Shown piece by piece: positions 12,930 through 21,840 of a DNA stretch of 33,709 nucleotides. The DNA comes from Phycisphaerae bacterium (GTDB taxonomy: Bacteria > Planctomycetota > Phycisphaerae > Sedimentisphaerales > Anaerobacaceae). The translations under genes and the position numbers were made by a program. The stretch spans positions 1 to 33,709 of the forward strand of contig JAAYBV010000117.1 of NCBI GenBank assembly GCA_012744475.1, given 5' to 3'. The notes under the pieces are model-generated. The model was given only the letters and a program-made list of their open reading frames with translations, was not told the DNA's origin and did no database searches. Every line of letters begins with the position of its first letter. Within the stretch, counting starts at the first letter, position 1.

Positions 12930-13004
12930 GTGTTCAGTCGCTTGTCTTGGTGGCAGGTGCGTACATCAGCGCCGCCACCGCCTTCGGAGAACGGAAAGAG
13001 GCGC

Positions 13005-14003
13005 ATGACTCCAACCAACCAGGGATCGATTCGGCTGTTCCGCCTGGCAGGCATCGAGCTGTACCTGCACTGGTCATGGTTCCTCGTGGCGTACTATGGG
13101 ATCCAGATGCGGGCGGGACGCTATCCGTCCATAATGTGGAGCGCGCTGGAGTACTTGGCGCTGTTCGGCATCGTCCTGCTTCACGAGTTCGGCCATTCGC
13201 TGGCCTGTCGTCAGGTGGGAGGCCGCGCCGATCGCATCGTCCTGTGGCCTTTGGGCGGCGTCGCCTACGTGGACCCGCCGCAACGGCCCGGCGCCATTCT
13301 CTGGAGCATTGCGGCCGGACCGCTCGTGAACGTCGTGCTGGCGCCCACATTCTTCCTGCTGGTACTCTGGATGGATGCCTCGGGTCTGGCCGAGCAGGCG
13401 TCGAATCTATTCAGGCTGCTTCGGACCATCGTAGCCATCAACGTCGGCCTACTGGTCTTCAACCTCCTGCCGATCTATCCGCTGGACGGCGGCCAGATTC
13501 TCCGATCGCTGCTGTGGTTCGTGCTTGGTCGGGCCTGGAGCCTGATCTCCGCGACGGTGATCGGCCTGATCGGTGTCGTGGGCCTGTTCGTACTGGCCCT
13601 CTGGGAGCGGTCGGTCTGGCTCGGGATTCTCGCGGCGTTCATTCTGCTGAACTGCTGGAACGGGCTGCGGCATGCGGTGCACCTTGTGCGCGTAAGCAGG
13701 TTGCCGCGTCACGCCGCGTTCGCCTGTCCGGTCTGTCGGACGGCGCCGCCGGCCGGTGCGATCTGGACCTGCGGCCACTGCCGCAACCCCTTCGACATGT
13801 TCGAGCATCGGGCTGTCTGCCCCCAGTGCGGCGTCGCCTACCCCGCCATTCCCTGTCCCGACTGCGGCACGGCTCATCCCTTCGCCGCCTGGACTCCTCT
13901 GTCGCCATCCTGGGCCAACCCGCCAGACAGGTCGTCTTCCCTCCCATCTCCCCATCCGCCCAGTTCCAGTGCTGCGGCCGGCAACAGGCCATACGGGCTG
14001 TGA
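13005..14003 (+). CDS. M50 (site-2 type) metalloprotease with C-terminal zinc ribbons
   Basis: This 332-residue membrane protein has the zinc-binding HEFGH motif at 60-64 in a hydrophobic helix, and the second motif NLLPIYPLDGG with D161. Several membrane segments lie between about 15 and 225. These are the marks of the SpoIVFB/Rv-type M50 family, which cuts substrates within the membrane. After the membrane part, about 230-290 holds eight paired cysteines (CPVC, CGHC, CPQC, CPDC), like a double zinc ribbon. A Pro/Ser-rich tail ends the protein. The ATG at 13005 is preferred because GGAAAGAGG lies before it; a GTG directly after the rbsA stop would add 25 unlikely residues. The substrate is unknown. 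Confidence 0.85.
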   Translation: MTPTNQGSIRLFRLAGIELYLHWSWFLVAYYGIQMRAGRYPSIMWSALEYLALFGIVLLHEFGHSLACRQVGGRADRIVLWPLGGVAYVDPPQRPGAILWSIAAGPLVNVVLAPTFFLLVLWMDASGLAEQASNLFRLLRTIVAINVGLLVFNLLPIYPLDGGQILRSLLWFVLGRAWSLISATVIGLIGVVGLFVLALWERSVWLGILAAFILLNCWNGLRHAVHLVRVSRLPRHAAFACPVCRTAPPAGAIWTCGHCRNPFDMFEHRAVCPQCGVAYPAIPCPDCGTAHPFAAWTPLSPSWANPPDRSSSLPSPHPPSSSAAAGNRPYGL

Positions 14004-14258: not shown

Positions 14259-16355
14259 ATGAGTGACTACATCGTTCTCGTCAAGCAGGTCCCTGACGTC
14301 TCGCAAATCACCGACAACGCCTTCGACCCGGAGACGGGTACGCTCGTCCGATCCCGACTGGCCAACGTCGTCAACGAACTCGATGCTCAGGCGCTGGCCT
14401 TCGCCCGATACATGAAGCAGATTAGCGGCGATGCCAAGGCGCGGATCATCGCACTGACGATGGGTCCGCCGATGGCGGAGGAGGTCCTCCGCTACAGCCT
14501 GGCCCGTGCGGCTGACCAAGTGGTTCTCCTGACGGATCGTGCACTGGGCGGGGCCGACACCTGGGCCACCGCCAATCCGCTGGCCTACGCGATTCGCCGG
14601 ATCGTCAAGGAAATCCTCCACTGCGGCGACGATTACTTCGTGGTCGCCGGCATGCAGTCGGTGGATGGCGATACCGCTCAGGTACCGGGGCAGATCGCCG
14701 AGGAACTGCAACTGCCCTGCATCGCGTACGCCACCGGCGCCGAGTACAAGAAGAAACGCTTCGAGTTCACCCGCATCATCAGCGGCGGCAGCCAGACCGT
14801 CGCGACCAGGAAGATGCCCGCGGTCATCACCGTCGCCAAGTACGAATACCCGCTGTTCGCGACGTTCGCCGGAACGCGGTGGGCCAACAAAGTCGACGTC
14901 GTTAAGTGGGGCGCCGACGATATCAATGCCACGCACATCGGAGCCAAGGGCTCTAAGACCGCGGTGATCCGCGTTTTTCCGCCCGGCAAGAGCACCCGCA
15001 AGTGTCAGGAAGTCAAGGACGTCAAATCGCTGGCGAAGATCATCGTCGAGAGCTTCAAGAGCGGCAATGGCGAAGGGGGCAAGGCCGATGAGGGGCCGGG
15101 ACCGTACGTGTTGCCCGCTCGACGCAAGAGCCTCCTGGAGCGGCCCTATGAGGCGACGAAGAAGGAGCAGGACGACTACGACATCCTGACCGCCATCCTC
15201 AAGGAGATGGAGATAGCCGACGCCGCCAAGCTCGATGATGCGACAAAAGACAAGGTCGTGGAGAAGGCGGGCGGGGCGTTCCACAAGAAGGCTCTCGAAG
15301 ACATGATCGGCGGCTTCGGCTTGGTCGAGCCGGCTTTCAAAGGCGAGGTGTGGGTTGTCGCCGAGCACAGTGGAGACGGCGTCATCCATCCCGCGACGTT
15401 CGAGCTGACCGGCAAGGCGCGCGAGCTGGCCGATTCGCTCGAAACGAAAGTCGGCGTTTGCATCGCCGGCGACAACGTCGCGCACATGGCCGAAGAGTTG
15501 ATTGCGGCCGGCGCCGACCACATCTACGCGATCGAGCACAAGCTGCTCAAGGAGTTCGATCCGACGGCCTACCGCAAAGCGGTTTCCGACGCGATCGACA
15601 AGTACGTGCCGCAGATCGTGCTGTACGCAGCGACGCCGCAGGGACGCATGCTGGCTCCGATGGTCTCGTACAAGACCGGCTGCGGCCTGACCGCCGATTG
15701 CACGGGCCTCGACATTCGCGACAGCTCTCGCAAAGGCGATATCGGCCTGCTGCTTCAAACCCGTCCGGCCCTCGGCGGGAACGTCATGGCGACGATCCGC
15801 ACGAAGAACTCCAAGAGCCAGATGGCGACGGCCCGGCCCGGCGTGATGAAGCGGATTCCCGCCGACCCCAAGCGCAAGGGCAAAGTCATCAAGCACAAAG
15901 TCGAGTTGACCGATGAGGACGTCAGTCTCGACATCATCCGGACCGAACTGGGCAGCGGGCAGGTCAACTTCGGCGCCGAAGCCATCGTCTCCGGCGGCAA
16001 AGGCATGCAGAGCCGCGACGGCTTCGACCGGTTGCTTCACATGCTCTGCGCGGAGATGAGCAGGAAGCTGGACACTGCTGTCGAGTACGGCGCTTCCAGA
16101 GCGGCGGTCGAGCAGGGCTTCGTCGAACGCGTTCATCAGGTCGGACAGACCGGGACGGCGGTCGGCCCGAAGCTCTACGTCGCGATCGGCATCTCGGGCG
16201 CCATCCAGCACATGATCGGCGTCGCCAACACCGAGACGATCGTGGCGATCAACAGCGACCCCAACGCACCGATCTTCAGACAGTGCGACTACTATATCGT
16301 TGGAACCGCCGAAGACGTTGTCCCGGACCTGGTGCAGGCTCTCGACAACATGTGA
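14259..16355 (+). CDS. Electron transfer flavoprotein, beta and alpha subunits fused
   Basis: The 698 residues join both ETF subunits in one chain. Residues 1-260 are the beta subunit: MSDYIVLVKQVPD, VNELDAQALAFA, and the nucleotide-binding segment GMQSVDGDTAQVPGQ (131-145). Residues about 260-350 are a charged linker and helical insert. Residues about 350-698 are the alpha subunit: EVWVVAEHSG, the C-terminal FAD domain with VSGGKGMQSRDG (near 577-588), QVGQTG (627-632), GISGAIQH and AINSDPNAPIF. ETFs carry electrons from dehydrogenases to a quinone oxidoreductase, and some forms bifurcate electrons. The DGDTAQV stretch resembles bifurcating ETFs more than mitochondrial-type ones. The gene starts a unit with a strong promoter; its partner oxidoreductase gene follows after about 60 bases. 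Product identity is clear; bifurcation is inference. Confidence 0.93.
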   Translation: MSDYIVLVKQVPDVSQITDNAFDPETGTLVRSRLANVVNELDAQALAFARYMKQISGDAKARIIALTMGPPMAEEVLRYSLARAADQVVLLTDRALGGADTWATANPLAYAIRRIVKEILHCGDDYFVVAGMQSVDGDTAQVPGQIAEELQLPCIAYATGAEYKKKRFEFTRIISGGSQTVATRKMPAVITVAKYEYPLFATFAGTRWANKVDVVKWGADDINATHIGAKGSKTAVIRVFPPGKSTRKCQEVKDVKSLAKIIVESFKSGNGEGGKADEGPGPYVLPARRKSLLERPYEATKKEQDDYDILTAILKEMEIADAAKLDDATKDKVVEKAGGAFHKKALEDMIGGFGLVEPAFKGEVWVVAEHSGDGVIHPATFELTGKARELADSLETKVGVCIAGDNVAHMAEELIAAGADHIYAIEHKLLKEFDPTAYRKAVSDAIDKYVPQIVLYAATPQGRMLAPMVSYKTGCGLTADCTGLDIRDSSRKGDIGLLLQTRPALGGNVMATIRTKNSKSQMATARPGVMKRIPADPKRKGKVIKHKVELTDEDVSLDIIRTELGSGQVNFGAEAIVSGGKGMQSRDGFDRLLHMLCAEMSRKLDTAVEYGASRAAVEQGFVERVHQVGQTGTAVGPKLYVAIGISGAIQHMIGVANTETIVAINSDPNAPIFRQCDYYIVGTAEDVVPDLVQALDNM

Positions 16356-16415
16356 AATGCCATCGGTCCTAATGGTCCCCTCGGACTTGTTCCCTGATTG
16401 ATTGAGGAATGGAAA

Positions 16416-18083
16416 GTGCCGAACAACAGCGAATACAACAAGGTCTCGGTTCTGGTCGTGGGCGCGGGCCCGGCCGGTCTGGCGACGGCGATCCAACTGC
16501 GGGTCCTGCGGCCTGACATCGACGTGTGCGTCATCGACAAGGCCCTCGATTTGGGAAACCATAATCTCTCGGGTGCTGTGCTGGAGAAGGAGCCGCTGCA
16601 TTCGCTGCTCGATGCGGCCAAGCCCGACTGGCGCGAGACCCCCGAGGCCAAGGACGTCCTGGCCAACGTGATCGACAAAGACGACATCATGTTCCTGCTC
16701 GGCAAGAAGATGTCGTTCAACATCTTCTGGGCTCTCAAGATGGCCCGATCCATGGGCATCGGGTGGGGACAGATGATCCACCACGGTGACTACTCTCTCT
16801 CGATCAGCAAGCTCACCAAATGGCTCGGCAGCATCGCCCGCGAGAAGGGCGTGGAGGTGCTGACGGGGTTTGCTGCCGATCACGTCGTGCTGGACGGCGC
16901 GGGAACCGCCGCCGGCGTCAAGCTCATCGATCAGGGCGTCAACAAGGAAGGGCACAAGCAGCCCAACTACGTCGAAGGCGAGACCATCGAGGCGACGTTC
17001 GTCGTGCTGGCCGAGGGCTGTGACGGCCTGGTCACTGAGCGGTTCGTCGAGGCGGCGGGTCTGAAGCGTGAATCGCATCAGCTCTACTCGCTCGGCGTCA
17101 AGGAGCTGATCAAAGTCACGCCCGAGCAATATGCGAACTTCTCTCGCGGCCGCGTCGTGCACGCCATGGGCTATCCGATCTGGACCCCGGTCATCGGGCC
17201 AGGCATGTTCGGCGGCGGGATCGTCTACGCCGGCGCCGAGGACAATCTGGCAGTCGGCATGATCGTCGGACTGGACTGGAAGTACCGCAATTTCAACGCG
17301 CAGGATGCGCTGGTCCGCCTCAAGGAGCACCGCTACATCAAGCCGTTCATCGAGGGCGGGACGGTCGTCGAGGCCGGCGCCAAGATGATCCCCGAGGGGG
17401 GCTGGTACGCGGTCCCGCGCGATCCGCACACCGGCAGCATCGGCAAGGGCAATGTCATGATCCTGGGCGACAGCGCCGGCTTCGTGAACATGCTCAAGAT
17501 CAAGGGCCTGCACAATGCCATCGATTCGGGCATCCAGGCCGCCAGGGCCATCGTAACCTGTATGGACAAGCCGGAAGGGGCCGCCCGGCGGTACACCGAT
17601 AACGTCGAGAGCTCGAACATCGCCAAAGAGATGAAGATCGCCAAGAACTCGCGGCATACGATCGCCAAGTTCGGGCCGTTGCAGGGCATGCCCCTGTCGG
17701 TGCTGGGCGGCTGGCTGCCCAAGTTCAAGGTGGAGCCGGACTATGAGATGATGACGACGGCGCCCTATCGTCTCAAGCCGAATCAGAACTTCGACAAGGA
17801 CACGTTCACTGCGGTCGCGGCTACCGCACATCGCGAGGAGGAGCCCTCGCACCTGACGATCCTCGACAGGACGATCTGCGAGACGAAGTGTACGCCGGTC
17901 TATGGCAGTCCGTGCATCACGTTCTGTCCGGCGGGCGTCTACGAGACCATCCACGGGGAGGTCAAGCCGGCCAACCCTTCGAACTGCCTGCACTGCAAGA
18001 CCTGCCAGCGCAAGTGTCCGTTCGACAACATCCGCTGGACCGCCCCCGAAGGCGGCGGCGGACCCCGCTACAAACGCATGTAA
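16416..18083 (+). CDS. ETF-quinone oxidoreductase/FixC-like flavoprotein with FixX-like ferredoxin domain
   Basis: The 555-residue protein starts with an FAD fold (LVVGAGPAGLATA). It has the family segments NHNLSGAV, GFAADHVV, GKGNVMILGDSAGFVN and the GLHNAIDSG helix, and ends in PEGGGGPRYKRM as in ETF-QO. ETF-QO passes electrons from ETF to membrane quinone. Ordinary ETF-QO has four cluster cysteines; here the C-terminal domain has eight: C488, C492, C500, C504, C524, C527, C530 and C534, spaced CX3CX7CX3CP and CX2CX2CX3CP. This fits a two-cluster FixX-type ferredoxin fused to FixC. The GTG at 16416 is preferred over a TTG at 16398 because GAGG lies eight bases before it. A hairpin terminator follows the stop. 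Confidence 0.92.
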   Translation: MPNNSEYNKVSVLVVGAGPAGLATAIQLRVLRPDIDVCVIDKALDLGNHNLSGAVLEKEPLHSLLDAAKPDWRETPEAKDVLANVIDKDDIMFLLGKKMSFNIFWALKMARSMGIGWGQMIHHGDYSLSISKLTKWLGSIAREKGVEVLTGFAADHVVLDGAGTAAGVKLIDQGVNKEGHKQPNYVEGETIEATFVVLAEGCDGLVTERFVEAAGLKRESHQLYSLGVKELIKVTPEQYANFSRGRVVHAMGYPIWTPVIGPGMFGGGIVYAGAEDNLAVGMIVGLDWKYRNFNAQDALVRLKEHRYIKPFIEGGTVVEAGAKMIPEGGWYAVPRDPHTGSIGKGNVMILGDSAGFVNMLKIKGLHNAIDSGIQAARAIVTCMDKPEGAARRYTDNVESSNIAKEMKIAKNSRHTIAKFGPLQGMPLSVLGGWLPKFKVEPDYEMMTTAPYRLKPNQNFDKDTFTAVAATAHREEEPSHLTILDRTICETKCTPVYGSPCITFCPAGVYETIHGEVKPANPSNCLHCKTCQRKCPFDNIRWTAPEGGGGPRYKRM

Positions 18084-18155: not shown

Positions 18156-21100
18156 TCATCGGTTGTTGCTGGCTACGGCGATCCCAAGCTGGTCCGCGAG
18201 CTGCCGGAGTTCGGCAACGTCCGCAGGCGTCAGTTCCAGGTACTGGGTACTGACGCCGTTGGGGATGGTGTAGACCACGCGGATGGGACTGGGGGTATCA
18301 CCTTGCCGATAGGTCGGGTGCCGCGTGATCTGCCCCAGGAGTTCGGCAATCATCTCTCGGACGTTTGCGACTCTCTGCTCTTCGATGACGTGGAAGCAGT
18401 AGGTCTTCTTCAAATCGCCGATCTGGAGCCGTCGGTGATCGACTCCAGGGGCGAGAATCATCACGCCATCCGTTGAGAAACCATATGGAAAAAGATCGTA
18501 GGCTGTCTCAAGCTCGGCCGTGACATCGACCAACTGCATGCCGAAGAGCGTGACAGGTTCGAGGGGACTCTTCAGTTCGATTCGTGTCATCCTCAGCGTC
18601 ATCTCGTCGTCTCGTGCGCGGTTCACGAAGGGTGCCAGCGCAACGGCTTTCTGATCGATTTCGCCGGCGAATGCGCGCAAGGTCAAGGTTCCGACCTCAG
18701 GAAGGCCGGCCAGCTCGAAACGTCCATCGCTGTCAGTCGTGGCGTCCCTGAGGATCCGCTCCTGAATGGCTTGCACGGTGACACCTGCGGTAGGGCGGCC
18801 ATTGGCGTCCTGCACCACGCCCGTGATTCTCCGACCCGGCATCAGTACCACGCGAAGCGAACGGCGCTGCTCGGCCGGGAGGTCATACAATCCGCTACGC
18901 CTCTCGGGCAGCGCTTTCGGGGACGTGAAAGACAACTCGGCTCTCCCACCGGCCTGCTGTTCCAACGGGAAATCGAAGATTTCAAATCGGCCCCGCTCGT
19001 CTGTTTCCGTACTGCTGACCCAGGCAGTACCGCTATCCGTGTAGATGTAGCCGGCGACCTTCACACCTGGCAGAGGCACGCGCTGGGGGGCCGTGACGGT
19101 CCCGGCAACGTAGATCGCGCGCGTCAACAGGATCGTCAGGTTCGAGGATTCGCTCTCCGAGGCACCGGTAAGAGGGAGCCATTCGAGATTCGGATTGTTG
19201 CCTCCGCCGTACCCGGTCCCGGCGGCGGTGCCGAATCCGGGAGCCCACGCGTCGACGGAGAACGACTCATTGCCTTCCTTCGCGGGGACGATCATCTCGA
19301 ACCGGCCCTCGGAGTTCGTCCTCGTCTCGTAGATATCCGATGTTGTTCCATCTTCCTGGGTGACTTGCCTCGACGGGCCTCTGGCATCCCGCATATCCAC
19401 CGCCGGGACGGCGACACGAATGAGGGCATCGGGGATGGGCTCCCGCGTGTCACCCGCCAGGACCCGGCCGGCCACGCGCACGGCCGAATCGTCTTCTGGT
19501 TTGACGCCGGTAGATGGAGTCTCCGGCTGCGGCGGGACGAGCAGATCGGCGTACCGCGCGAGCAGCGCATCCGGACTGAAGATGTCGTCCGGGAACGTGG
19601 GGTCCAGGTCGAGATAGACTGCGTTGATTCGCGAAGGTTCGCTGGTCATGGGTTTGCGCATGTGCTTGTACCCGAACTCACTGATCTGGAGAGGATACCA
19701 TTGTCCTTGGTCGGTTCGTGCGTACTCGGTGATTTCCTCCGCGTAGTCATTGTGGGGTTCGAGTCTTCGCCGACAGAGGTAGTCCCGCTCGGGATTGAGG
19801 TAGAATCGCGTAGTCAGCGTCACCTTTTCTCGACCGTCTCTGATGGCTTCGTGCTGCTCTTCGATACAGATCAGGCTGTGGTCCAGAGCGTACCGGTCCG
19901 TTGAGATCAGTCTTAACTTGGATTTCGCGCCACCAAGCAACGGCCAGCCCCGCCCGCCAAGCGTCGGCAGAAACATCTCGTCTGGAGGAGAAGCTGTTTT
20001 CTGGCCGCCCTCGAAATGGCCGTAGCCGTCGGGCCACAGGCTGCACGTGTACGTCCCGTCATGGACCTCCACGTTCTGGGGCGTGTGCTGCTGGGCCCAT
20101 GCAAGGATGGACCGGATCGTCTCTCCGGCGTTCGTTTGGTCGTTCGCCACCGCCTGCATGTCCACGTTCTGCCCGGCCCTTGGCGATCCGAAGGCGTACT
20201 TGGCCCGGTAGAGTTGCACTTCGTTCTGGTAAGTGACATAGACGTCAGAGTTGTTCTTGACCACCATCAGATACCTGCGGGGCGCCGCGTTGCGGCTGGC
20301 CTCGTATGCCGCGACCACCTCTTCAAACGTGGCTTTCCTCTCTGACGTCTGGCCTTCCGCCCGCGCCCGGACGGTCAGGACCACCGCGGTCGGGACGATC
20401 AGGATCGCCGTCAGGAGGACGACGAGCGCCGCAGGGCCGCTGGGTCTTCGATAGAATTGTCTTCCCGGTTTCAACATGGTTTTGATCCTTTCCTCAAGGT
20501 TTCTCGCCGGTCCGGCTACGGCCAACGAGGGAACGGGCCGGGCCGACGTCTCCGCACTCGCCAAGGTCTCCACCACCGCATGACAATACTCTCTCGGTTC
20601 CGTCCCCAACTGCGCCACGGCCATCTCGTCGCAGCATTTCTCTCGCTCTCGTCGAATCTCGCGGTTGGCCCACCACACGAGCGGATGAAACCAGAATAGC
20701 CCCTGGGCGAGGGTCTGTAGCGCGTTAACCGCCGCATCGCAACGAAGAACATGGCTCAATTCATGGGCCAGCACGTGCCGTCGATGCGTGCGGTCCCCGA
20801 TCTTCAGGAAGTGGGAAGGCACGTAAATGCTGCCGCGCAGGAGGCCCCATACAAAGGGCTGGCCGATCTCGTCGATGACCCAGATGGGAGGCACGGGCCT
20901 TCGGCCAGGAATCGAGAGCAGGGTCTCCGTCTCCTTCCGTATCGCATCGGGCAGGGGCCGGCGCCTCGCATGGAGCCAGTATCGGCCCCGCAAGGCTCTC
21001 AGCAGGTTCATCGCCAAATACAGACCTGCACCGGCGATCCAGACCATCGCAGCCCAGACGCGAAGGTCTGCTGGCTCGCTCGGGTGGTAATCAGCCCGCG

Positions 21101-21434
21101 TCAACGGCACCGTGGGCTCGGCCTGGCTCGATTCGACTTTCGGGCCCGGCACCGAAGGGAGCCCCGACCCGATTGGAACGCTGCTTCCCGCGTCGACCGC
21201 CGGGGTTTCCACAACCGTGTGCGAGGCCGTCTTCTCGGGCAAAACCCTCAGCGGCACCGCGAAGAACGGCGGCACCAAGCACTTGGCTAAGACGATCAGC
21301 CAGAGCAGGTAGCGGATGTGGGCAGTCTTGTGCCGCAGTGCCCACGTCGCGCCGGCCACCACGAGGGTCAGTACAGCGATCTGCCAGCTCTGCGCGGCCA
21401 GATACCGCACCAGTTCGGTCAGATAGAGATTCAT
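18156..21434 (-). CDS. BlaR1-like M56 protease with carboxypeptidase-regulatory-like extracytoplasmic domains
   Basis: The 1092-residue protein starts like BlaR1/MecR1, with membrane helices near 15-32, 42-60 and 125-147. A cytoplasmic M56 zinc protease domain follows, with HELSH (H224, E225, H228) and a downstream Glu in EREKCCDEMA. A further helix lies near 333-352. The long outer part lacks the penicillin-binding sensor of BlaR1. It has a region of unknown fold (about 360-660), then repeated carboxypeptidase-regulatory-like beta domains (AGRVLAGDTREPIPDA, GTVTAPQRVPLPG, GVVQDANGRPTAGV), and a short C-terminal domain. It would sense some outside signal and inactivate the BlaI repressor encoded directly upstream; that signal is unknown. 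GGAGGTG precedes the ATG. The gap from blaI is 25 bases. Confidence 0.87.
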   Translation of the reverse strand: MNLYLTELVRYLAAQSWQIAVLTLVVAGATWALRHKTAHIRYLLWLIVLAKCLVPPFFAVPLRVLPEKTASHTVVETPAVDAGSSVPIGSGLPSVPGPKVESSQAEPTVPLTRADYHPSEPADLRVWAAMVWIAGAGLYLAMNLLRALRGRYWLHARRRPLPDAIRKETETLLSIPGRRPVPPIWVIDEIGQPFVWGLLRGSIYVPSHFLKIGDRTHRRHVLAHELSHVLRCDAAVNALQTLAQGLFWFHPLVWWANREIRREREKCCDEMAVAQLGTEPREYCHAVVETLASAETSARPVPSLAVAGPARNLEERIKTMLKPGRQFYRRPSGPAALVVLLTAILIVPTAVVLTVRARAEGQTSERKATFEEVVAAYEASRNAAPRRYLMVVKNNSDVYVTYQNEVQLYRAKYAFGSPRAGQNVDMQAVANDQTNAGETIRSILAWAQQHTPQNVEVHDGTYTCSLWPDGYGHFEGGQKTASPPDEMFLPTLGGRGWPLLGGAKSKLRLISTDRYALDHSLICIEEQHEAIRDGREKVTLTTRFYLNPERDYLCRRRLEPHNDYAEEITEYARTDQGQWYPLQISEFGYKHMRKPMTSEPSRINAVYLDLDPTFPDDIFSPDALLARYADLLVPPQPETPSTGVKPEDDSAVRVAGRVLAGDTREPIPDALIRVAVPAVDMRDARGPSRQVTQEDGTTSDIYETRTNSEGRFEMIVPAKEGNESFSVDAWAPGFGTAAGTGYGGGNNPNLEWLPLTGASESESSNLTILLTRAIYVAGTVTAPQRVPLPGVKVAGYIYTDSGTAWVSSTETDERGRFEIFDFPLEQQAGGRAELSFTSPKALPERRSGLYDLPAEQRRSLRVVLMPGRRITGVVQDANGRPTAGVTVQAIQERILRDATTDSDGRFELAGLPEVGTLTLRAFAGEIDQKAVALAPFVNRARDDEMTLRMTRIELKSPLEPVTLFGMQLVDVTAELETAYDLFPYGFSTDGVMILAPGVDHRRLQIGDLKKTYCFHVIEEQRVANVREMIAELLGQITRHPTYRQGDTPSPIRVVYTIPNGVSTQYLELTPADVAELRQLADQLGIAVASNNR

Positions 21435-21459
21435 CGTTGCACCTCCGCAGCGAACGAGT

Positions 21460-21840
21460 CTATGGGTTGTCGATGAGCTTCTTGAGTTCGTCGAGGTCTT
21501 TGGCTTCGAGATGGCCGTCTTTGGCCAGGAACTGCATCAGCGGCTTGGGGTCGCCTCCGAAAAGCCGGTCGACGAAGTCGAGCACGGTTCGCCGGACGAC
21601 CTGCTCGCGGTGGACCGCCGGGACGAAGACGTGGGCCTTGCCTTCCGTCTTGTGCTGGAGATAGCCTTTTTCCTCCAGGCGGCGCAGCAGGGTCTGCACG
21701 GTCTTGTAGGCGATCTTCCGCTCGGGCGGCAGGGCCTCGCAGACTCCCTGGACGGTGGCCTCCTCAAGCTGCCAGACCAGCCGCAGGATCTCGGTTTCCG
21801 CCGGGCTCATCGCACGCAAGTGCTCCTTGGTCATAGTCAT
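21460..21840 (-). CDS. BlaI/MecI-family transcriptional repressor
   Basis: This 126-residue DNA-binding protein has the winged-helix domain of the BlaI/MecI/CopY family: LSPAETEILRLVW-like helix, then KIAYKTVQTLLRRLEEKGYL as recognition helix and wing, about residues 10-75. The C-terminal helices serve dimerisation. Such repressors bind TACAnnTGTA dyads and are cleaved after a BlaR1-type sensor is triggered. Two matching operators overlap the promoter just upstream, so it probably represses its own two-gene operon, with the M56 sensor as second gene. AGGAG lies before the start; a second ATG two codons later is possible. Confidence 0.93.
   Translation of the reverse strand: MTMTKEHLRAMSPAETEILRLVWQLEEATVQGVCEALPPERKIAYKTVQTLLRRLEEKGYLQHKTEGKAHVFVPAVHREQVVRRTVLDFVDRLFGGDPKPLMQFLAKDGHLEAKDLDELKKLIDNP

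Follow-up and report, generated by a model that had tools for sequence, protein, structure and literature searches.

This analysis indicated that the window (the whole stretch of DNA analysed, 33,709 nucleotides) encodes an ETF-QO-type protein, hereafter the QO protein, with eight cysteines in its C-terminal tail, and that its gene follows that of a fused EtfB-EtfA (EtfBA). We consider it probable that this tail is the EtfX-like end of a fused EtfC-EtfX, that the protein forms with EtfBA a two-polypeptide relative of the EtfABCX complex, and that two [4Fe-4S] clusters are bound, the distal one stabilising or tuning, with any low-potential exit running via the flavin of EtfBA. We file the pair as an apparent two-polypeptide EtfABCX-like variant on an ETF-QO body, and not as a proven member of EtfABCX, since the exact motifs and the subunit layout differ and the activity is putative. 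If this reading is true, planctomycetes of this group and anammox bacteria would have a four-protein electron-splitting complex reduced to a minimum of two proteins, which would make expression and dissection easier. No description of the fused pair or of an eight-cysteine ETF-QO was found in literature titles and abstracts, a scope outside which lie a 2017 J Bacteriol survey of ETFs and a 2021 PNAS structure paper that may bear on it.

The eight-cysteine tail of the QO protein

16398..18083, + strand: ETF-QO/EtfC-EtfX-type protein, 561 aa (frame, Pfam and PDB sequence matches)
17085..17390, + strand: ETFQO_UQ-bd domain, residues 230-331 (Pfam PF21162, 59.7 bits)
17787..18074, + strand: Fer4_ETF_QO ferredoxin domain, residues 464-559 (Pfam PF05187, 94.6 bits)
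17877..18017, + strand: predicted ligands of the distal (second) cluster, C494, C498, C506 and C540 (codons 17877, 17889, 17913 and 18015; aligned with C29, C33, C38 and C71 of Thermotoga maritima EtfX)
17925..18005, + strand: predicted ligands of the proximal (usual ETF-QO) cluster, C510, C530, C533 and C536 (codons 17925, 17985, 17994 and 18003; aligned with C42, C61, C64 and C67 of T. maritima EtfX and with the four cysteines of pig ETF-QO)

The QO gene may start at TTG 16398 or at GTG 16416, the latter with GAGG a few bases 5' of it; the choice leaves the ferredoxin domain unchanged. Residue numbers given here count from the TTG and are higher by six than those of the original prediction, which counted from the GTG. 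That prediction announced eight cysteines in the C-terminus, in two groups ending in CP, and this is exactly what the frame translation contains: cysteines 494, 498, 506, 510, 530, 533, 536 and 540 (codons 17877-18017), with both groups terminating in CP. Only three other cysteines occur in the protein.

The architecture is indeed that of an ETF-QO, with full-length FAD, ubiquinone-binding and Fer4_ETF_QO parts. Sequence matches in the PDB were pig ETF-QO over residues 5-560 (2gmh, 1.7e-71), T. maritima EtfC over residues 17-421 of the body (7koe_C, 2e-18) and T. maritima EtfX over residues 479-559 of the tail (7koe_D, 2.8e-14); the body is nearer to ETF-QO than to EtfC by sequence (244 vs 69 bits). 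An AF2 model built on 39 sequences (pLDDT 84.4, pTM 0.90) was matched with VIA-align to pig ETF-QO (2gmh, Z 42.1, 518 residues aligned, rmsd 3.4) and to EtfC (7koe_C, Z 34.5, 369 aligned, rmsd 2.4). The blocks of the tail were modelled with moderate confidence (pLDDT 66-85), and structural coverage of this ferredoxin part is that of the whole-chain 2gmh match.

The tail departs from pig ETF-QO in its cysteines. Fold, domain order and the four proximal cysteines (510, 530, 533 and 536) are shared, whereas the other four positions are Pro, Asn, Glu and Asp in the pig protein, the eighth being Asp in pig and Cys in the window; the single [4Fe-4S] cluster on four cysteines typical of ETF-QO is thus replaced by eight cysteines of cluster type. 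All eight coincide one for one with the cysteines of T. maritima EtfX (C29, C33, C38, C42, C61, C64, C67 and C71, by counting along the chain of 7koe_D), the loop between the second and the third being three residues longer in the window. The expected ETF-QO/FixC-type protein with a two-cluster ferredoxin tail was therefore recovered, and alignment with ferredoxin domains of this family placed the four extra cysteines on the ligands of the second cluster of EtfX.

T. maritima EtfX is reported to carry two [4Fe-4S] clusters, with 7.1 Fe per EtfABCX complex and two EPR signals, and that paper treats C29 and C33 as distal ligands and C61 and C64 as proximal ones (PMC10734219). From ferredoxin topology, C38 and C71 would also be distal ligands, and the rest of the assignment would follow likewise. 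That the tail of the QO protein is positioned for two [4Fe-4S] clusters is well supported by this alignment, and both are predicted to be occupied.

The likeness to FixX proposed originally held in part. A review attributes two [4Fe-4S] binding motifs to FixX (PMC6085437), and rhizobial FixX shares with the window the proximal cysteines and the eighth cysteine. However, it is a separate small protein, and the first three distal cysteines are missing in both of the rhizobial sequences compared, a pattern that differs from that of the window. Judged by alignment, the close match of the tail is EtfX of the Thermotoga type, not rhizobial FixX.

The cysteines of the tail are strongly conserved. In an alignment of the window with 38 relatives, down to 50% identity, all eight were kept in 39/39 rows, while the three other cysteines of the protein were kept in 28, 35 and 9 of the same rows, and we therefore take the eight to reflect more than chance.

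The fused EtfB-EtfA partner and the probable route of electrons

14259..16355, + strand: fused EtfB-EtfA, 698 aa, ending 42 bases upstream of the QO gene (Pfam, PDB scores)
15060..15338, + strand: EtfB/EtfA linker, residues 268-360 (about 93 in all), modelled as mostly helical

Gene pairing was found to be very stable. EtfBA is on the contig in 78/80 related loci and on the same strand as the QO gene in all 90 loci holding both genes; exceptions to the pairing are L018 and L073, which are without EtfBA, and L034, where the gap reaches 2.2 kb. The linker matched no Pfam family, and no cysteine occurs between residues 249 and 401. By PDB scores rather than by a tree, EtfBA resembles group 2 (bifurcating-type) EtfAB: five ETFs of bifurcating complexes outscored the other ETFs matched with both the alpha half (254, 251, 225, 214 and 179 bits vs 81-109) and the beta half (136, 131, 124, 95 and 89 bits vs 34-50). 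The model of EtfBA (pLDDT 79.3, pTM 0.79) matched ETFs of both kinds, the best being 5ol2_A (Z 29.9, rmsd 8.8), and this structural match appears to say little about ETF type.

The pair thus resembles EtfABCX of T. maritima (Fix, PDB 7KOE) in its EtfAB type by sequence, its EtfC-type flavoprotein and its eight-cysteine EtfX-type tail. It differs in having two fused polypeptides instead of four, a flavoprotein body closer to ETF-QO than to EtfC, and altered flavin-site motifs in EtfBA. The partner also sets the QO protein apart from pig ETF-QO, whose ETF differs from this fused one, which is nearest to ETFs of bifurcating complexes. RXGV, present in "most" group 2 sequences (PMC10734219), reads RSRL in the window, with Leu for Val in 22/22 EtfBA sequences; the Pro of GXXSPTXV (position of P239) is Lys or Arg in 22/22, and RPXFGG reads RPALGG, again with Leu in 22/22. 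None of the three exact motifs is present, but the key Arg, Val and Arg are kept: the positions matching R38 and V242 of T. maritima EtfA are conserved in 22/22 (R31 and V236), as is DGDTAQ, and the position of R140 of T. maritima EtfB is R502, an Arg in 22/22.

These altered motifs lend some weight to a different reading, in which the pair is a non-bifurcating ETF, fed by NADH or by an acyl-CoA dehydrogenase, with its quinone oxidoreductase, the two clusters being an inherited relay and no ferredoxin being reduced. This remains a tenable though less probable view. In line with it, the best NCBIfam ETF match of EtfBA, below its cut-off, was an acryloyl-CoA reductase subunit, whose ETF is described as not supporting ferredoxin reduction (PMC5736913), and the same genome has a separate cluster of EtfB, EtfA and acyl-CoA dehydrogenase; the EtfB of this cluster has its highest scores with ETFs of bifurcating complexes. 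Two points speak against it: the retained R502, since T. maritima R140 variants lost ferredoxin reduction and this Arg is needed for bifurcation, and the T. maritima variants at R38, P239 and V242, which still bifurcated at least partly in the mutagenesis study (PMC10734219).

In the T. maritima complex, the quinone branch is described as leading from the bifurcating flavin to the electron-transferring FAD (ET-FAD), cluster II of EtfX, the FAD of EtfC and menaquinone, and the bifurcating flavin is also what reduces ferredoxin, with the low-potential electron (PMC10765413, PMC10734219). The clusters of EtfX are assigned to the high-potential branch in both papers; according to one of the two, cluster II alone lies on the path and the clusters have an inferred potential of about +37 mV, and the other places both on it (PMC10734219, PMC10765413). 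Homology with this EtfX leads us to place the tail on the quinone branch, and makes stabilisation or tuning a more likely role of the distal cluster than that of an exit. Among ligand variants of T. maritima EtfX, only C29A gave an intact complex, which held both clusters or none, and the authors concluded that stability of the complex requires both (PMC10734219). Altered ligands mostly blocked the intact complex, so these variants could not settle the role of the second cluster (PMC10734219).

In the EtfABCX-like reading that we prefer, the QO protein would be a membrane-associated flavoprotein of ETF-QO type, a fused EtfC-EtfX, whose proximal cluster (C510/C530/C533/C536) would pass electrons from the electron-transfer flavin of EtfBA to the FAD of the QO protein and on to quinone. 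The distal cluster (C494/C498/C506/C540), beside the proximal one, would most likely stabilise or tune the docking domain. If EtfBA bifurcates, its bifurcating flavin would hand the low-potential electrons to a soluble ferredoxin, and the tail would be bypassed. Ferredoxin is probably in use in this genome, given that it encodes RnfC and POR-type domains besides the separate EtfB, EtfA and acyl-CoA dehydrogenase cluster mentioned above. Regarding the other end of the route, the PF02621 domain, which we take to mark MqnA/MqnD, was not found in the genome, which is 99.6% complete, and MenD gave no match above the cut-off in this same genome; two weak MenD matches were seen, the first of which resembles acetolactate synthase by eye. 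Quinone as the acceptor is unproven, since neither of the two markers tried was found.

Since no MqnA-type domain and no MenD above the cut-off was found, the membrane acceptor may be something other than quinone. This enters a broader and unlikely proposal, in which the distal cluster would serve as a genuine second port for electrons. The QO protein would then be a three-way hub linking EtfBA, this membrane acceptor and a soluble partner, for example the corrinoid-protein system that half of the relatives encode beside the pair. The mitochondrial single-cluster ETF-QO would then be a stripped-down relative that lost the port when its ETF stopped bifurcating.

The second cluster had originally been seen as a low-potential exit that a simple ETF-QO lacks. 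In favour of this view, the additional ligands do exist and are conserved, and an external carrier receiving the electrons could in principle dock to an exposed ferredoxin domain; neither quinone-pathway marker was found, and a corrinoid protein is encoded next door in 29/60 relatives. Corrinoid proteins need low-potential electrons for reactivation. However, no corrinoid gene adjoins the pair in the window, and the assignment of both EtfX clusters to the high-potential branch, for which one paper infers about +37 mV, with ferredoxin reduced by the bifurcating flavin, speaks against the claim (PMC10734219, PMC10765413) and makes such an exit very improbable. Finally, that the protein is an ordinary single-cluster ETF-QO in which four cysteines are structurally incidental, as Pfam, fold and length would allow, is hardly credible in view of the invariance of the eight cysteines next to variable others and of their one-for-one match to a two-cluster protein.

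Spread of the tail types among relatives

Tails were sorted in 105 distinct relatives in which this part is readable, a count without L001 (the copy in the window itself), two duplicates, and L037 and L067, which are cut: 86 have all eight cysteines, one has seven (L045, outside the alignment above, with Gly in place of the first tail cysteine) and 18 have seven plus Asp. A close match, defined as at least 469 bits, was present in 57/75 genomes of the window's order, the tails being read in part of these 57, and a 58th genome gave only an 82-bit match. Among 294 genomes drawn from the phylum, 12 had a match of at least 469 bits, the window included, and all 12 tails were of the eight-cysteine type. 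A quick tree rooted on FixC, for which the flavoprotein body was used and the tail left off, grouped the eight-cysteine proteins in one clade (SH-aLRT 99). By their titles, anammox loci belong to this set (Brocadiaceae L074, Scalindua L076 and L077, Anammoxibacter L078 and Brocadia L079), and we read these data as a two-polypeptide EtfABCX-like enzyme occurring in Phycisphaerae-type planctomycetes and anammox bacteria.

Further loci lie outside Planctomycetota by title, namely in Latescibacterota (L055, L056) and UBP9 (L062, L075). L072, titled Spirochaetes, comes from G310, which holds the only close match among 149 genomes of its phylum; 19 of these 149 gave any match at E<=0.001, and after G310 the highest score was 63 bits. 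Such titles may be misleading. L064, titled Candidatus Kuenenia stuttgartiensis and found in G313, has coordinates and score equal to those of G308 of the window's order and is probably a mislabelled assembly; misbinning is also probable for L006 (Methanoperedens) and L071 (Burkholderiales).

The statement that classical ETF-QO has four cluster cysteines was only partly upheld. It describes the pig protein and five proteobacterial plasmid ETF-QO, which have four Cys plus Asp, but not the other planctomycete ETF-QO, in which 53 of 58 tails (L093-L110 and L114-L153) have seven Cys plus Asp and thus share three of the four distal cysteines with the window, the eighth position being Asp. This Asp is common to the seven-cysteine and four-cysteine ETF-QO read. 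Tails with seven plus Asp may carry a [3Fe-4S] cluster, a [4Fe-4S] cluster with Asp as a ligand, or no second cluster. Forty of the 58 loci had been hand-picked to span different families; 35 have seven plus Asp and five have a degraded tail (L135, L140, L146, L151 and L152, the last ending at a contig edge), with three of the eight positions still Cys. These degraded relatives may have lost the cluster altogether. The sets with eight cysteines, with seven plus Asp and with four plus Asp are naturally occurring variants in which the role of the second cluster of EtfX could be probed.

The 18 loci L093-L110 showed no EtfBA in their short flanks. When two EtfB of seven-plus-Asp genomes were compared with the PDB, both matched a canonical ETF best, that of Paracoccus, at 138 and 130 bits (CarD 132 and 116), and one such genome, G266, has in addition an EtfB (L178) nearer to that of the window (95 bits; other EtfB of the set 35-72). 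A link between cysteine number and ETF type is only a suggestion, because two EtfB were compared, with small margins, and because of this EtfB of G266.

The quick tree rooted on FixC seemed to nest four-cysteine and three-cysteine proteins among those with seven plus Asp. A decay in the order eight, seven, four was considered and set aside: a tree constrained to keep the seven-plus-Asp proteins together on one side of a branch is not rejected by the AU test (p 0.546) and was better by 2.65 log units, and the FixC branch is very long.

Gene neighbourhood of the pair

12930-14003: M50-peptidase-like gene, upstream of EtfBA in the window
18156-21840, opposite strand to the QO gene and directly behind it: BlaR1-like M56 peptidase with a carboxypeptidase-regulatory-like domain, and BlaI-like (Penicillinase_R) repressor

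After removal of frames overlapping the pair, a divergent gene whose product is of corrinoid type (B12-binding at 100.7 bits and B12-binding_2 at 80.4 bits in Pfam) was found upstream of EtfBA in 29 of the 60 loci with at least 1.2 kb there, and in 30 loci in all. It starts 70-424 bases from EtfBA in 26/30, and examples are L014 2895-3524, L057 2989-3804 and L066 1949-2656, all divergent to EtfBA. A gene with sigma-70 regions and a MerR-like helix-turn-helix lies behind it in 17 of the 29, and in 18 loci in all. The window has no corrinoid gene next to the pair, and neither do the loci nearest to it (such as L002-L007 and L068) or the anammox loci. The presence of this gene in half of the relatives hints that part of the clade links the pair to methyl-group metabolism, and says nothing direct about the window. 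In Moorella, EtfABCX is part of a proposed redox-balancing scheme during growth on methanol (PMC13391211). The remaining neighbour genes recur in at most 18/80 loci.

The end of the QO gene presented a further peculiarity. Among the 73 relatives with downstream sequence, six have its last 62-190 bases repeated on the same strand, with 84-98% identity, at a distance of 0.6-5 kb downstream, and no such repeat was found within 9 kb downstream in the window.

Same-strand repeats of the QO 3' end:
L002 7683-8724
L003 7683-8725
L009 2579-3364
L026 7665-8906
L051 7650-8443
L008 7668-13017

The copies in L002, L003 and L026 share their starting point, which lies about 114 bases from the end of the QO gene. 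This looks like insertion into the 3' end of the gene with the gene restored. The cargo before the copy is a HEPN and nucleotidyltransferase pair in L002 and L003; elsewhere it includes BrnT with a CopG antitoxin, a PEP-CTERM protein or a methyltransferase, and in L008, by eye, an ankyrin-repeat protein together with a BlaR1/BlaI-like set.
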